A program made the translations under genes and the position numbers. Below the pieces are notes generated by a model. It saw nothing but the letters and a program-made list of their open reading frames with translations. It made no database searches and had not been told where the DNA came from. Shown piece after piece: positions 4,291-59,644 of a stretch of DNA of 64,000 nt; the stretch's first letter is position 1, and each line of letters opens with the position of its first letter. The DNA comes from an uncultured bacterium (lineage in GTDB: Bacteria; Bacteroidota; Rhodothermia; Rhodothermales; Rubricoccaceae), in NCBI GenBank assembly GCA_947493945.1, contig CANLSR010000001.1, forward strand, positions 248,001-312,000. The letters are read 5' to 3'.

Positions 4291-4363
4291 GGCTCCGTAG
4301 CTCAGTTGGCAGAGCAGCTGGCTTTTAACCAGCGGGTCGTAGGTTCGAGCCCTACCGGAGTCA
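4291..4363 (+). tRNA. tRNA-Lys (anticodon TTT)
   Basis: The 73-nt cloverleaf has acceptor strand GGCTCCG (4291-4297) pairing with CGGAGTC (4356-4362) through one G-T pair. The anticodon stem GCTGG/CCAGC closes loop CTTTTAA, giving anticodon TTT. The T arm is GTAGG/CCTAC around TTCGAGC. The discriminator is A4363, and CCA is not encoded in full (only CC follows). It is followed 43 nt later by tRNA-Leu on the same strand, so both are probably processed from one transcript. Confidence 0.97.
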
Positions 4364-4406
4364 CCCTCGCCGCCGGCCCCCGACGGCCCTGTTCTTCAAG
4401 CCTCCT

Positions 4407-4490
4407 GCCCGGGTGGTGAAATTGGTAGACACGCACGCTTGAGGGGCGTGTGGAGTAAAATCCGTGCTGGTTCGAGTCCAGTCCCGGGCA
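4407..4490 (+). tRNA. tRNA-Leu (anticodon GAG)
   Basis: The 84-nt class II tRNA has acceptor GCCCGGG pairing with CCCGGGC and a long variable arm. The anticodon stem CACGC/GCGTG encloses loop TTGAGGG, giving GAG, which reads CUC/CUU leucine codons. CUC is one of the common Leu codons in these GC-rich genes. The intrinsic terminator begins four bases after the discriminator. Confidence 0.97.
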
Positions 4491-4493
4491 CCG

Positions 4494-4527
4494 AGCGGCC
4501 TCTCCACACCGGAGAGGCCGCTTTTTT
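4494..4527 (+). terminator. Rho-independent terminator of the tRNA operon
   Basis: A perfect 12-bp stem (AGCGGCCTCTCC / GGAGAGGCCGCT) with a 5-nt loop is followed at once by a run of T. This is the clearest classical terminator in the window. Confidence 0.93.
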
Positions 4528-4537
4528 GTCTCTGGAC

Positions 4538-4569
4538 CGCTGGCGGTCCGTCGGCGGCGACCGCCAGCG
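4538..4569 (-). terminator. Inverted pair of the CGCTGGCGG word at the 3' end of the L,D-transpeptidase gene
   Basis: CGCTGGCGGTC (4538-4548) and GACCGCCAGCG (4559-4569) form an 11-bp stem with a 10-nt loop, ending one base past the stop codon of the leftward gene at 4571. There is no T-tract. The arms are copies of the iterated word described in the findings. Confidence 0.55.
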
Positions 4570-4570
4570 A

Positions 4571-5383
4571 CTAGGGCTCGATCACGACCGGCGTGCCGAC
4601 CGAGACGTAGGCCCACAGCTCGTCCATGTGCACGTTGCGGAGCGCCACGCAGCCGCGCGTCCAGGCCCGCTGGCGGCCCGAGCCGGACCCGTGGATCTCG
4701 ATCAACCCGCCCAGGCGCGTGTTCATCGGCGGCTCGACGCCGTCCTGGTCGGCTCGGACGATGGCCTCGTACTGGTCCTGGGTGATGATCCCGTCCCGGA
4801 AGCCGCGCAGCGCGTGGACGGGGCCGGGGTAGCTGATCACGAACGCGCGGTAGTAGGCCGACCGGTCGTTGCGGCGCGTCACGAAAAAGACGCCCTCGGG
4901 GATCCGGTAGTGGGCGTCCTCGCCGCGCGCCGACCGCCGCACCTTGTCCTCGTCGCTGATCGACACGTCGGCGGGGAGCTCGCGGACCAGGGCGGAGCCG
5001 CGGTACACGTAGACCACCCGGTCGCTCTTGTCGACGCGGATCCACAGGTTCGACAGCTCGGCCGCGCGCACGTAGCCCTCCAGGCCGCCGTACCGGACGC
5101 GCCGCCAGCCGGCGGCGAACCCGTCGGCAGGGGGCCCCGCCTCCTCCAGCACGCGGACGCCGTCGCGGGGCTGGAGCGTGGCCAGAACGGGCGCCCGGCC
5201 CACGGGCGACGCCCGGAGCGCGACGTCCCGGTCGGTGACGTAGTAGGCCGGCGCCGCGTCGACGCGGCTGGCCGATGGGGAGTAGACCGACGACGGGGCC
5301 TCGGCCGTCGCGTACCCGTCGGGGTCGGACTGGGCTGAGACCGACGCGCTGACGATCAGGACGGCGGCGAGGAAGCGGTACAT
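4571..5383 (-). CDS. Exported L,D-transpeptidase (YkuD domain) with SH3-like domain
   Basis: This 270-residue protein starts with a signal peptide (about residues 1-18). An SH3b-like segment follows at about 50-110, and a YkuD catalytic domain runs from about 112 to the end. The catalytic motif is visible: His231 in IEIHGSGSG and the nucleophilic Cys245 in RGCVALRN. Enzymes of this family make 3-3 crosslinks in peptidoglycan or anchor proteins to it, acting in the periplasm. The start is ATG at 5383, with a TACCTTTA box 16 nt upstream and a TTG 21 nt before that box. It stands alone between a convergent tRNA operon and the HAD gene. Confidence 0.9.
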   Translation of the reverse strand: MYRFLAAVLIVSASVSAQSDPDGYATAEAPSSVYSPSASRVDAAPAYYVTDRDVALRASPVGRAPVLATLQPRDGVRVLEEAGPPADGFAAGWRRVRYGGLEGYVRAAELSNLWIRVDKSDRVVYVYRGSALVRELPADVSISDEDKVRRSARGEDAHYRIPEGVFFVTRRNDRSAYYRAFVISYPGPVHALRGFRDGIITQDQYEAIVRADQDGVEPPMNTRLGGLIEIHGSGSGRQRAWTRGCVALRNVHMDELWAYVSVGTPVVIEP

Positions 5384-9205: not shown

Positions 9206-9227
9206 GCTGGCGGTCGGCGCCGCCAGC
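9206..9227 (-). terminator. Inverted pair hairpin downstream of the receiver-domain gene
   Basis: GCTGGCGG (9206-9213) and CCGCCAGC (9220-9227) form an 8-bp stem with a 6-nt loop, lying 44 nt past the leftward gene that ends at 9271. There is no T-tract. Confidence 0.45.
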
Positions 9228-9270: not shown

Positions 9271-9645
9271 TCACCCGCCGGCCAGCAGCGCCTCGACGGC
9301 GGCGAGCATCTCGGCCTTCATCACCGGCTTCGACAGGTAGCCGTCGAAGCCCGCGGCGAGGCAGCGGGCGCGGTCCTCGGGCGACGCGTGCGCCGTCAGC
9401 GCGAGGGCGCGGACCGACGCCGTCTCGCGGTCGGCGCGGAGGCGCTGGATCAGGTCCAGCCCGGTCATGCCGCCCTGGTAGTTGAGGTCCAGCAGCGCCG
9501 CGTCGACGCCCTCGGCGATGCGCTCGGCGGCCTCCTCGGCCGTGGTCGCCGTGACCACCTCGTAGTCGCGCCGCAGGTAGAGCGTGAACAGGTGGAGGTT
9601 CTCGGGGTAGTCGTCGGCGACGAGGAGCGTGGGCCGGACCTGCAT
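9271..9645 (-). CDS. Stand-alone response-regulator receiver domain
   Basis: This 124-residue CheY-like protein has no output domain. The acidic pocket Asp11-Asp12, phospho-acceptor Asp53 (LLDLNY), Thr84 (ALTAH) and Lys106 (YLSKP) are all present, so it should be phosphorylatable. Partners are unknown: no histidine kinase is encoded nearby. The start is ATG at 9645. It lies 143 bp upstream of fabI on the same strand, but hairpin 9206-9227 and the fabI box between them argue for separate transcription. Confidence 0.92.
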   Translation of the reverse strand: MQVRPTLLVADDYPENLHLFTLYLRRDYEVVTATTAEEAAERIAEGVDAALLDLNYQGGMTGLDLIQRLRADRETASVRALALTAHASPEDRARCLAAGFDGYLSKPVMKAEMLAAVEALLAGG

Positions 9646-17892: not shown

Positions 17893-17927
17893 CGCCCGGC
17901 TGGCGGACGCGCTCCGCCAGCCGGGCG
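17893..17927 (-). terminator. Perfect 15-bp hairpin between the aminotransferase gene and moaC
   Basis: CGCCCGGCTGGCGGA (17893-17907) and its exact reverse complement (17913-17927) flank a CGCGC loop. It lies 90 nt past the leftward aminotransferase stop (18017) and just upstream of the moaC promoter box, so it probably separates the two units. There is no T-tract; the arms carry the iterated GCTGGCGG word. Confidence 0.65.
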
Positions 17928-18016: not shown

Positions 18017-19231
18017 CTACGCCAGCGCCGTCAGGCCGGCCTCGATGCGGTCGCAGGCGCGCGTCAGCGTGTCCAGGTCCGTGGCGTACGACAGGCGGAC
18101 GCCGGCGTCGGAGCCGAACGCCTGGCCGGGCACCAGCGCCACGTCGTGCGCTTCCAGCAGGTACCGGCACAGGCCCACGCTGCCCGAGATCGTGTCGCCG
18201 TCGGGCGTTTGGCGGCCGTAGAGCGCCGAGACGTCGGGGAACAGGTAGAACGCGCCCTGGGGCACCGGGCAGACCACGCCGCCGATGGCGTCCAGCCGGG
18301 CCAGCACGGCGTCGCGGCGCTGGCGGAAGGCGTCGACCATCGCCTGGACCGGCTCCGGCCCCATCGTGAACGCCGCCAGCGAGGCGTACTGGGAGATGGA
18401 CGAGGCGCCGCTGGTGAGCTGGCTCTGGACCTTGGCCGCGGCGCCGGACCACCAGCCGGGCGCGGCGAGGTAGCCCAGCCGCCAGCCCGTCATGGCGTAG
18501 GCCTTGGAGAACCCGTTGACCGTCGCCGTCCGGCCGCCCATGCCGTCGAGCGAGCCGAACGAGACGTGCTCGGCGTCGAACACGACGTACTCGTAGATCT
18601 CGTCCGAGATGACCACGACGTTGGGGTGATCGCGGAGGACCTCGGCCAGGGCCTCTTGCTCGTCGCGGCTGTAGACGGCGCCGGTCGGGTTGGAGGGGCT
18701 GTTGAAGATCAGCGCCCGCGTCCGCTCGGTCATCGCGTTCGCCAGCTGGGCGGGCGTGATCTTGTAGTCGGCGGCGGCCGTGGCCGGGATCTCGACCGGC
18801 TCGGCGCCCGCCAGCCGCGCCATCTCGGGGTAGCTCACCCAGTACGGCGCCGGGATCAGCACTTCGTCGCCGGGCCGGCAGACGGCCAGCAGGGCCTGGG
18901 CGACGGACTGCTTGGCCCCGTTAGAGACCACCACGTCGCCGGCGGCCACATCGAGCCCGTTCTCGCGCGTCAGCTTGTGGGCGATGGCTTGGCGGAGCTC
19001 GGGGATGCCGGCGCTGGGCGTGTAGTGGAACCGGCCGTCGCGCAGCGCTTGGTGCGCCGCCTCGACGATGGGCGCCGGCGTGTCGAAGTCGGGCTCGCCG
19101 GCCGAGAGCGCGATGACGTCGCGGCCCTCGCGGACGAGCGCGGCGGCGCGCGCCGAGATGGCCAACGTGGCCGAGGGCCGCATGGCCTCCACGCGGGGGC
19201 TGAGGGCGTCGAGGGCGGGGGCGTCGGTCAT
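18017..19231 (-). CDS. Class I PLP-dependent aminotransferase (aspartate aminotransferase type)
   Basis: This 404-residue cytosolic enzyme belongs to the aspartate/aromatic aminotransferase fold-type I family, subgroup Ib. Visible features are SAGEPDFDTP near 43, the cofactor-phosphate segment SNGAKQSV near 107 and the Schiff-base lysine in NGFSKAYAMTGWRLGY near 238. A substrate-carboxylate Arg near the C-terminus (VRLSYAT) is also present. The length is standard. It most likely transaminates aspartate or glutamate. The ATG at 19231 is preceded by a TACCTTCC box at 19 nt. It appears monocistronic. Confidence 0.93.
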   Translation of the reverse strand: MTDAPALDALSPRVEAMRPSATLAISARAAALVREGRDVIALSAGEPDFDTPAPIVEAAHQALRDGRFHYTPSAGIPELRQAIAHKLTRENGLDVAAGDVVVSNGAKQSVAQALLAVCRPGDEVLIPAPYWVSYPEMARLAGAEPVEIPATAAADYKITPAQLANAMTERTRALIFNSPSNPTGAVYSRDEQEALAEVLRDHPNVVVISDEIYEYVVFDAEHVSFGSLDGMGGRTATVNGFSKAYAMTGWRLGYLAAPGWWSGAAAKVQSQLTSGASSISQYASLAAFTMGPEPVQAMVDAFRQRRDAVLARLDAIGGVVCPVPQGAFYLFPDVSALYGRQTPDGDTISGSVGLCRYLLEAHDVALVPGQAFGSDAGVRLSYATDLDTLTRACDRIEAGLTALA

Positions 19232-23598: not shown

Positions 23599-23629
23599 CC
23601 CCGCTGGCGGAGCCGGACCGCCAGCGGGG
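23599..23629 (-). terminator. 12-bp inverted-pair hairpin after the oxidoreductase gene
   Basis: CCCCGCTGGCGG (23599-23610) and CCGCCAGCGGGG (23618-23629) form a perfect 12-bp stem with a 7-nt loop, beginning three bases after the leftward stop at 23633. There is no T-tract. This is one of the best examples of the paired word acting as a 3'-end hairpin. Confidence 0.65.
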
Positions 23630-23632
23630 CGG

Positions 23633-25303
23633 TCAGTCGCCCGACGGCGACAGCATCGACCACAGCGCGGCGCCGACGGCCCCCGTCGCCGCGGTGCCCA
23701 GCGCGACCTCCTTCCAGGGCACGCCGCTCGTCAACCGCTCGGCGACGAGCCAGCCCGAGGTCGCGTTGTTACCCGGGCCCGGCCACGCCGCCGCGCCGCA
23801 CAGGTAGAGGCCCTCGACCGGCATCTCGTAGCGGCTCCAGCCGGGGAACGGCCGGAACAGGAAGTTCTGCCGGAAGTGGGCGCTCCCGCCGATCGAGTCG
23901 CCGCCGACCAGGTTGGCGTTGTGGCGCTCCAGGTCCACCGGGCTCATGGCGTGCTGGCCCACGACGCGCTCGCGAACGCCTGGCGCGAACCGCTCCAGCT
24001 TGTGCAGGACGCGCTCGACAAACGGCTCGGCCGCCCCGGCCCAGTCGGTCGCGTCGATCTCGCCGGCGGCGTCACCGGCGATGGTGCCCGGCACGGTGCG
24101 GACCTGGATCCACAACACGTGCGTGCCGTCGGGCGCCCGCGTCGGGTCGACGGCCGTCGTCTGGCCGACGATCAGGAGCGGGCTGTCGGGCAGGAGGCCG
24201 GCCAGGCTCTGCTGGTAGGTCCGCGCCAGGTCGTCGACGGTGGGCGGGACGTGGACGTAGGCGAAGTCCGCCAGGTCGGCGCCGGCGGCCCACGGGACCG
24301 GCCCGTCCAGGGTCAGGTGGAGCATGAACGTGCCCGGCCCGTGCTGGTAGCCCTCCACCTTGTGCTCGAACTCGTCGGGCAGCGGCACATCGCCCAGCAG
24401 CCGGCCGAAGATGGCCTGGGGCATCAGGTTCGCGACGACCGCCTTGCCGGCCCCGATCTGCTCACCGCCCTCGATCTCGACGCCCGTCGCCCGGCCGCCG
24501 TCGGTCAGGATGCGCGTCACGCGGGCGCCGGTGCGGACCGTCCCGCCGTTCTCCTCGATCATGGCGCAGAGCGCCTGCGGGATCTTCGAGGCCCCGCCCT
24601 CGGCCACCACCATGCCGCCCTCGATGTTCGAGAACGTCTCCATGAGCGGGAAGACCGCCCCGCCCGAGACGTCCGGCCCGAAGTCCATGTGCAGGCCCCA
24701 GGTCGTGAGCAGCGCCTGGGCCTCGGGCGTTTCGAAGTAGCTCTCGCCCAACTCGCGCGTCGAGCCCAGGAGCATCCCGGCCAGCTCCAGCGTCCGCTCG
24801 ACGCCGAGCGTGGCGACGCCCTTGGCGAGCACGCCGGCGGCCCCGGCTGAGGGGAGCGCGTGGCCGTAGAGCGGGAGGAACACCTTCTGGAAGTCCTGGA
24901 ACCGCTCGTTCAGCTGGCGGAGGCCCCGGGCGTCGGCGGGCGAGCGCTGGGCCAACTCGGCGGCCGTCCGGTCGAGGTCGGCGACGACGCGGATCGCCGT
25001 GCCGTCCTCGAACACGTTGCAGAACGGGGTGTCGGAGTGGGCAAAGCGCAGCCCGTGGCGCTCGAAGTCCTCCTCCCACGCCCGGTACGGCGGCGACTGC
25101 TTAAACAGGTTCTGGTTGGTGGAGTACAGGTCGTGGACGACGCCGGGCAGCGTGACCTCGCCCGAGCGGACGCAGCCGCCGGGCGTGTCCTCGGCTTCGA
25201 GGACCACGACCGACCACCCGGCCTTGGCGAGGGCCGCCGCGGCGACGAGCCCGTTGTGGCCGGAGCCGATGACGACGGCGTCGTGGGAAGAAGCGAGTGA
25301 CAT
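23633..25303 (-). CDS. FAD-dependent phytoene desaturase/retinol-saturase-like oxidoreductase
   Basis: This is a 556-residue NAD(P)/FAD-dependent oxidoreductase of the CrtI-like amine-oxidase clan. The dinucleotide motif GSGHNGLVAAAALA lies at 13-26, followed by VVLEAEDTPGGCVRS. The FAD-binding C-terminal motif GLYLCGAAAWPGPGNNATSG lies near residue 500. A hydrophobic, Ala-rich C-terminal helix may tether it to the membrane. Members act on carotenoids, retinol-like lipids or other polyenes; the substrate is unknown. The ATG at 25303 gives a clean N-terminus. No other carotenoid gene is adjacent. Confidence 0.85.
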   Translation of the reverse strand: MSLASSHDAVVIGSGHNGLVAAAALAKAGWSVVVLEAEDTPGGCVRSGEVTLPGVVHDLYSTNQNLFKQSPPYRAWEEDFERHGLRFAHSDTPFCNVFEDGTAIRVVADLDRTAAELAQRSPADARGLRQLNERFQDFQKVFLPLYGHALPSAGAAGVLAKGVATLGVERTLELAGMLLGSTRELGESYFETPEAQALLTTWGLHMDFGPDVSGGAVFPLMETFSNIEGGMVVAEGGASKIPQALCAMIEENGGTVRTGARVTRILTDGGRATGVEIEGGEQIGAGKAVVANLMPQAIFGRLLGDVPLPDEFEHKVEGYQHGPGTFMLHLTLDGPVPWAAGADLADFAYVHVPPTVDDLARTYQQSLAGLLPDSPLLIVGQTTAVDPTRAPDGTHVLWIQVRTVPGTIAGDAAGEIDATDWAGAAEPFVERVLHKLERFAPGVRERVVGQHAMSPVDLERHNANLVGGDSIGGSAHFRQNFLFRPFPGWSRYEMPVEGLYLCGAAAWPGPGNNATSGWLVAERLTSGVPWKEVALGTAATGAVGAALWSMLSPSGD

Positions 25304-31633: not shown

Positions 31634-31654
31634 CGCTGGCGGCGCGCGCCAGCG
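31634..31654 (+). terminator. Inverted pair hairpin after era
   Basis: CGCTGGCG (31634-31641) and CGCCAGCG (31647-31654) form an 8-bp stem with a 5-nt loop, 10 nt past the era stop. There is no T-tract, but a second perfect palindrome follows. Confidence 0.6.
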
Positions 31655-37078: not shown

Positions 37079-37114
37079 CGCTGGCGGTCGTTCTGCGCGC
37101 GGCCTCCGCCAGCG
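37079..37114 (+). terminator. Inverted pair of the iterated word after hslU
   Basis: CGCTGGCGG (37079-37087) and CCGCCAGCG (37106-37114) can form a 9-bp stem with an 18-nt loop, 62 nt past the hslU stop and 12 nt before the next GTG. There is no T-tract. Confidence 0.45.
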
Positions 37115-51097: not shown

Positions 51098-51131
51098 CCG
51101 CCAGCGCGGCAGCGGCCCGTGCCGCTGGCGG
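51098..51131 (+). terminator. Inverted pair of the iterated word after the dioxygenase gene
   Basis: CCGCCAGCG (51098-51106) and CGCTGGCGG (51123-51131) form a 9-bp stem with a 16-nt loop, 39 nt past the stop at 51058. Orientation is reversed relative to the other pairs. There is no T-tract. Confidence 0.4.
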
Positions 51132-54181: not shown

Positions 54182-54206
54182 CGCTGGTGGACCGCCTCCG
54201 CCAGCG
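54182..54206 (+). terminator. Inverted pair hairpin after the GGDEF-EAL gene
   Basis: CGCTGGTGGA (54182-54191) and TCCGCCAGCG (54197-54206) form a 10-bp stem with one G-T pair and a CCGCC loop, starting three bases past the stop. It is one of three hairpins with nearly the same stem-loop design. Confidence 0.6.
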
Positions 54207-59617: not shown

Positions 59618-59644
59618 CCGCTAGCGGACGCCCTCCGCCAGCGG
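59618..59644 (+). terminator. Inverted pair hairpin directly after the 58931 gene
   Basis: CCGCTAGCGGA (59618-59628) and TCCGCCAGCGG (59634-59644) make an 11-bp stem with one mismatch and a CGCCC loop, touching the TAG stop codon. It has nearly the same design as 17893-17927 and 54182-54206. Confidence 0.6.

Follow-up and report, generated by a model that had tools for sequence, protein, structure and literature searches.

An iterated, uptake-sequence-like word with dialects and its inverted pairs at gene ends in a Rhodothermota family

Nine gene ends in the 64-kb window analysed here (bases 248,001-312,000 of contig C1 of G000, a 3.77-Mb genome; window GC 74%) are followed by inverted pairs of a short word, GCTGGCGG. 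On balance, and by analogy with known systems, we favour reading this word as a self-DNA word of the uptake-sequence kind, with dialects among relatives, whose inverted pairs may double as non-canonical hairpins at mRNA 3' ends. The initial annotation had likened the pairs to paired uptake sequences, and as a resemblance this is well supported: the word is iterated and non-palindromic, its single copies within genes go beyond codon bias, its pairs lie past stop codons, relatives carry dialects, mobile DNA is depleted in it and competence genes are present. The analogy is less comfortable in that the word is iterated about 2-3 times more densely than known uptake sequences, and the role in uptake is itself a proposal.

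Under this proposal GCTGGCGG would be the self-DNA word of this species, probably read by a candidate DNA-binding minor pilin of the type IV pilus, and its reading would lead to kin DNA being preferred in natural transformation, while relatives carry other words. Close inverted pairs, we propose, are favoured just past stops because in that position they double as GC-rich hairpins with short loops at the 3' ends of mRNAs, where they could act either as terminators that have no T-tract, aided by Rho or NusG, or as stabilisers of the 3' end. A further-reaching version, which we offer tentatively and regard as possible but doubtful, is that an uptake-sequence system of three or more dialects arose independently within a single Rhodothermota family. 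In it, a three-gene minor-pilin cassette of the type IV pilus operon would be exchangeable and would determine the dialect, and dialect-word pairs would by now have become common mRNA 3'-end elements.

To our knowledge, uptake sequences are established only in Neisseriaceae and Pasteurellaceae, and a literature search, which did not extend to preprints, found no description of such words in this family of Rubrivirga relatives. A third, unrelated lineage, with words that vary among close relatives, would make it possible to test how words spread, how they switch and how they settle at gene ends, and the uptake reading would also point to a concrete candidate reader. The dialect word would mark native as against acquired DNA within the family, and its density in G004 (14,000 copies) is about three times that of the Neisseriaceae and Pasteurellaceae cases.

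Inverted pairs at gene ends

Genes were called with our own simple codon-usage caller, which gives approximate starts and firmer stops. All nine inverted pairs listed in the initial annotation are present (Table 1). It had placed them at or after stops or in gene gaps; all nine fall between called genes, with 0-89 nt separating each from the nearest upstream stop. It had counted two pairs that touch or nearly touch the stop codon; there are five, each 10 nt or less from it. The description of the nine as pairs of the word holds exactly for the six that have two GCTGGCGG arms and needs amending for those at 31634, 54182 and 59618, each of which carries one mismatch. Similarly, of three hairpins said to share almost one design, that at 17893 does pair perfectly, with GGCTGGCGGA rather than CGCTGGCGGA as its stem, and the other two pair imperfectly, with a G-U and an A-C position. 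Within the window, close exact inverted pairs number six in approximately 7 kb of gaps against two in 57 kb of coding DNA.

When RNA folding was compared with shuffles, the pairs at 17893-17927 and 54182-54206 were clearly more stable and those at 4538 and 23599 moderately so. The remaining pairs, including 31634, 51098 and 59618, were weak because the background is so GC-rich. The GC-rich hairpin that characterises intrinsic terminators is therefore present, strong at 17893 and 54182 and weak at 31634, 51098 and 59618.

Table 1. Word pairs and a contrasting terminator in the window (window coordinates), with the pilin-like cassettes of four genomes
Feature	Location	Strand	Arms and loop	Setting	RNA fold
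Word pair	4538..4569	-	exact arms, loop 14	1 nt beyond stop of L,D-transpeptidase gene 4571-5383(-)	z -2.4
Word pair	9206..9227	-	exact arms, loop 6	43 nt beyond stop of gene 9271-9645(-)	
Word pair	17893..17927	-	exact arms, loop 7, unbroken long stem	89 nt beyond stop of aminotransferase gene 18017-19231(-)	-43.7 kcal/mol, z -5.0
Word pair	23599..23629	-	exact arms, loop 7	3 nt beyond stop of oxidoreductase gene 23633-25303(-)	
Word pair	31634..31654	+	one mismatch, loop 3	convergent gap, 10 nt beyond stop of era-like GTPase gene	
Word pair	37079..37114	+	exact arms, loop 18	61 nt beyond stop 37017, 12 nt ahead of next start 37127	
Word pair	51098..51131	+	exact arms, opposite polarity CCGCCAGC...GCTGGCGG, loop 18	39 nt beyond stop 51058	
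Word pair	54182..54206	+	one arm GCTGGTGG (one mismatch), loop 7	convergent gap, 2 nt beyond stop of GGDEF-EAL gene	z -3.6
Word pair	59618..59644	+	one arm GCTAGCGG (one mismatch), loop 7	convergent gap, immediately after stop 59617 (0 nt)	z -0.5
Canonical intrinsic terminator (contrast, no word pair)	4495..4527	+	GCGGCCTCTCC-acac-CGGAGAGGCCGC-TTTTTT	after tRNA-Lys/tRNA-Leu	
Pilin-like cassette, G000 (contig C3)	L181:9996-13754				
Pilin-like cassette, G003	L182:11120-13991				
Pilin-like cassette, G001	L198:10718-13635				
Pilin-like cassette, G002	L199				

The genome-wide search for the stem-loop that the initial annotation had suggested gave 221 pairs with loops of 1-9 nt in the whole of G000, against 4 for the reversed control. 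Pairs are also enriched after stops, with 1.2 per kb over the first 50 nt past them and 0.02 per kb over the final 100 nt of genes. Word density likewise peaks in the first 50 nt past stop codons and is low just ahead of starts, and it is highest in convergent gaps, followed by tandem and then divergent gaps. In a 464-kb sample of G000 there are 28 intergenic pairs, where words placed at random in the same gaps give 7.3 ± 2.6; the corresponding figures for close inverted pairs are 9 against 2.9 in G007, 33 against 13.4 in G004 and 15 against 3.2 in G003, the pairs of G001 being too few for this comparison. Inverted pairs in 3' intergenic positions, a property of uptake sequences, are thus found in the genomes with enough data.

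At loops of up to 20 nt, inverted doubles outnumber direct ones by 29 to 2 in G000 and by 33 to 4 in G004, a preference that points to selection of the hairpin or palindrome as such. Spacings are sharply fixed: G000 has 7 or 3 nt (1 nt where the polarity is opposite), G007 has 19 nt, G003 4 nt and G004 0 nt. The 0-nt pair of G004 is the palindrome GCCTCTGGCGCCAGAGGC, which several times overlaps a TAG stop, and 47% of the gapped gene ends of this genome have a pair within 100 nt. A small sample of orthologous gene ends contained no shared pairs (0 of 24) and no association in 82 comparisons. The 3' end of era nevertheless bears pairs in two dialects. Among named organisms, the era-like GTPase of the window is closest to that of a Rubrivirga MAG (83% identity), which makes G000 a Rubrivirga-like member of the Rhodothermota, and the orthologue in that MAG (L069) bears the other-dialect pair CCGCCTCG-gcgt-CGAGGCGG at the same gene end.

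The absence of a T-tract, as claimed at the outset, was borne out: TTTT occurs within 20 nt after the pair at 0 of 21 oriented sites in G000 and at 1 of 38 in G004, so that the U-tract which directly follows the hairpin of an intrinsic terminator is missing from these sites. Termination of the canonical kind does occur, though seldom where protein genes end: across all five genomes, about 1% of gene ends show a stem with TTTT behind it. One textbook T-tract terminator closes the tRNA-Lys and tRNA-Leu unit at 4291-4527 of the window, which adjoins the word pair at 4538-4569. A search for covariation extending the stem past the word found none; the hairpins therefore look to be made of two word copies, rather than to be independently evolved terminators, and it appears to be the word that is maintained. 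The hairpins probably serve some function at the 3' ends of mRNAs.

The iterated word and its dialects

The analysis covered stretches that add up to approximately 0.7 Mb for G000 and 0.1-0.3 Mb for each relative compared; words were discovered from samples, and whole-genome word counts are exact. The word GCTGGCGG occurs 1,273 times in 624 kb of G000, where a third-order Markov model predicts 296, and CGCTGGCGG occurs 3,889 times in the whole genome against 575 for the reversed string. With both strands counted, GCTGGCGG recurs about once per 400-500 bp. Within coding DNA, 621 sense copies compare with 172 after synonymous codon shuffles within genes, and 328 antisense copies with 124, a 2.7-3.6-fold excess that holds on both strands; the dialect word of G004 stands at 292 against 21 and 209 against 10 on the two strands. 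Forward and reverse counts are near equal genome-wide and in each 20-kb stretch along the G004 chromosome. The word thus shares with uptake sequences both its over-representation on the two strands and its single coding copies beyond codon and amino-acid constraint.

With codon phase controlled, isolated words reveal an extended element, approximately C-G-n-C-C-C-GCTGGCGG-A/T-n4-G-T-C-G-G-C-G. In G000 these isolated words have C-G-n-C-C-C upstream and a second box, G-T-C-G-G-C-G-n-G, at +6 to +14 downstream. This weak second box, about one helical turn 3' of the core, is strong in G000 and has several positions repeated in G007, from another genus, in which positions -6, -1, +1, +7 and +9 of the extended element recur. 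An extended and oriented element like this is what one would expect of a site contacted by a protein on double-stranded DNA. Several family members show a mild excess of a further string, CTCGGCGA, irrespective of the main word that they use (samples of G001, G003 and G008); this string resembles the second box of the G000 element.

Relatives differ in the word they iterate (family and genus labels f1, g1 and g2 are the genome tool's own, and formal names for these groups are inferred). G001, G002 and G003, from the same genus as G000, show a weak excess of GCTGGCGG and iterate CCGAGGCGG instead, with 3,300, 2,523 and 4,084 copies, respectively, against 241-459 for controls. The second genus is split, as G007 uses GCTGGCGG (3,973 copies of CGCTGGCGG) and G004 uses GCCTCTGGCG, which reaches 14,176 copies in that genome, or one per 310 bp, and at most 99 in each of the 19 other genomes counted. 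GCTGGCGG does not, then, reflect a compositional trait of the whole family. A 94-kb sample of genus g3 yielded no comparable word, and neither did ten genomes from other families, each sampled once over 12-20 kb; samples of this size are too small to exclude weaker words.

The word is rare in horizontally acquired DNA, as uptake sequences are. On contigs that bear RepA, Tn3 or integrase genes, and in an island encoding type I restriction and SIR2/STALD, there are 4-8 words per 13-20 kb, compared with a background elsewhere of approximately 30-56 per 20 kb in G000 and 42-98 in G004, and the plasmid-like contigs of G004 have the same GC as its own chromosome. The island (L150, G000:C1:540001-560000) is word-poor and lower in GC (64%), encodes type I restriction and a SIR2/STALD protein, and is a probable defence island. 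One of the word-poor RepA contigs (L128, contig C11 of G004) has separate genes for a secretin, PilN, a prepilin peptidase, T2SSE/T2SSF and N_methyl pilins, amounting to a further pilus or secretion system borne by a plasmid-like element.

Competence genes and a candidate reader

Competence machinery, which an uptake-sequence system needs, is encoded in the genome. ComEC is encoded by 37 of the 40 genomes sampled from the order, among them every one of the nine in family f1, and each of the five genomes tested for DprA has it. A G000 cluster contains secretin, PilT-like, PilB-like and PilC-like genes together with a small pilin-like protein. The pilus ATPase was not found in the incomplete assembly of G007 (91% complete), which shares the G000 word and gave no match to T2SSE, the third pilin, A2 or the cassette.

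Three pilin-like genes sit between the PilT-like and PilB-like genes (Table 1). Members of this trio are 66-77% identical between G001 and G003, which use the same dialect, and only 29-35% identical between G000 and either of these, whereas the remaining pilus-cluster proteins of G000 are 61-91% identical to those of G001 and G003. The third cassette protein has a long Ala-rich C-terminal extension that is confined to G000 and one copy in G002. Predicted models of two of the pilin-like proteins, of low to moderate confidence, place an N-terminal helix of 57-61 residues ahead of beta strands, a predicted shape like that of type IV pilins. A PDB fold search with the models returned no significant match, and a Pfam search of G000 for N_methyl found none. 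The only candidates for a receptor like ComP are these divergent pilin-like proteins, whose putative kinship with ComP has no significant fold match behind it.

G002, which uses CCGAGGCGG, has its own cassette type as well as one like that of G000, so reader and word are not one-to-one; together with G007, which shows neither cassette nor pilus ATPase, this makes the assignment of the pilin-like cassette as putative word reader a lead. G005 and G008 have pilin cassettes and gave no clear word in a 94-kb sample. In their samples a string around ATCGGGGTCCGGATCC recurs in a dozen copies and may be a repeat of the tandem or CRISPR type.

Alternative explanations and known systems

The main rival, which we judge unlikely, is a motif like the cyanobacterial HIPs, a short site kept at high copy number by a DNA methyltransferase or by a mismatch-repair system, with no role in uptake, its pairs being a by-product or a secondary use at 3' ends. 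A very dense iterated word that is swapped for others in some species is common to both systems: the density of one per 310-460 bp lies within the range of HIP1 and above that of DUS and USS, and HIP1, itself dense, is replaced in some species by other words linked to matching methyltransferases (PMC4390886). However, HIPs are perfect palindromes tied to methyltransferases, and none of the three words here equals its own reverse complement. We also know of no report of HIPs as inverted pairs at 3' ends. Less probable still is that the word is primarily an RNA 3'-end element, with GC-rich hairpins in place of T-tract terminators and single words as half-sites or decayed copies. This would agree with the clustering of pairs past stops, their inverted orientation (29 against 2 direct), their short, fixed loops and the T-tract terminators at about 1% of gene ends; most copies, however, are single words within genes, and their excess over synonymous shuffles, seen for both strands, is beyond what an RNA hairpin could explain; the stem has no covarying extension and is built from a word that differs between species.

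Spread of REP-like repeats by a RAYT (Y1) transposase is very improbable and largely refuted. Although one or two Y1_Tnp genes are present in G000, G002, G003, G004 and G007, and inverted pairs near genes resemble REP/BIME elements, the Y1 genes examined (G000, G004 and G007) lie near RepA or integrase genes in word-poor stretches (4-8 words per 13-20 kb), the words are for the most part single 8-10-mers within genes rather than mainly extragenic repeats beside a RAYT gene, and G001 has its dialect word without Y1_Tnp. We give an equally slight chance to a recombination or segregation signal. The E. coli Chi octamer is GCTGGTGG, from which GCTGGCGG differs by one base, and the density is high, but the likeness holds in one dialect only, close relatives use unrelated words, and inverted pairs after genes are not expected of Chi; a Chi or KOPS role was rejected on the absence of strand bias, both genome-wide and per 20-kb stretch of the G004 chromosome. 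Finally, that the word is a by-product of high-GC codon usage (CTG-GCG-G) has a negligible probability. It is true that 584 of the 621 sense genic copies are in one frame, but antisense and intergenic copies are in excess too, congeneric genomes of like GC show far less of the word, and the 3.6-fold excess over synonymous shuffles refutes the artefact.

The uptake-sequence-like reading that we prefer can be set beside several known systems. Hairpin terminators that lack a T-tract, termed I-shaped, have been proposed in actinobacteria; the pairs described here are like these in being GC-rich hairpins just beyond the stop with no U-run, and differ in that the stem is an iterated, species-specific word. 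Pasteurellaceae USS come in two clade-specific core types, with weaker 3' flanking segments about one helical turn apart (PMC1626085), and the extended element likewise has a 3' segment about one turn from its core, although this flank (GTCGGCG) is rich in GC where that of USS is rich in AT, and stands out clearly in the GCTGGCGG dialect alone. The words are not Pasteurellaceae USS proper, the cores AAGTGCGGT or ACAAGCGGT with AT-rich flanks being unmatched.

Neisseriaceae DUS form inverted pairs that are able to fold into stem-loops and are associated with terminators in all dialect genomes (PMC3630211). Compared with DUS, the words of this family are unrelated in sequence and 2-3 times denser, their pairs have no T-tracts, the host phylum is Rhodothermota, the receptor is putative and uptake is proposed from sequence. 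DUS proper was rejected, since the top words GCTGGCGG, CCGAGGCGG and GCCTCTGGCG are unrelated to GCCGTCTGAA; CTG, the shared DUS core, is found in two of the three words and is absent from CCGAGGCGG. What the family has in common with Neisseriaceae DUS is thousands of copies on both strands, several dialects per family, single copies within genes, inverted pairs and depletion in mobile DNA.
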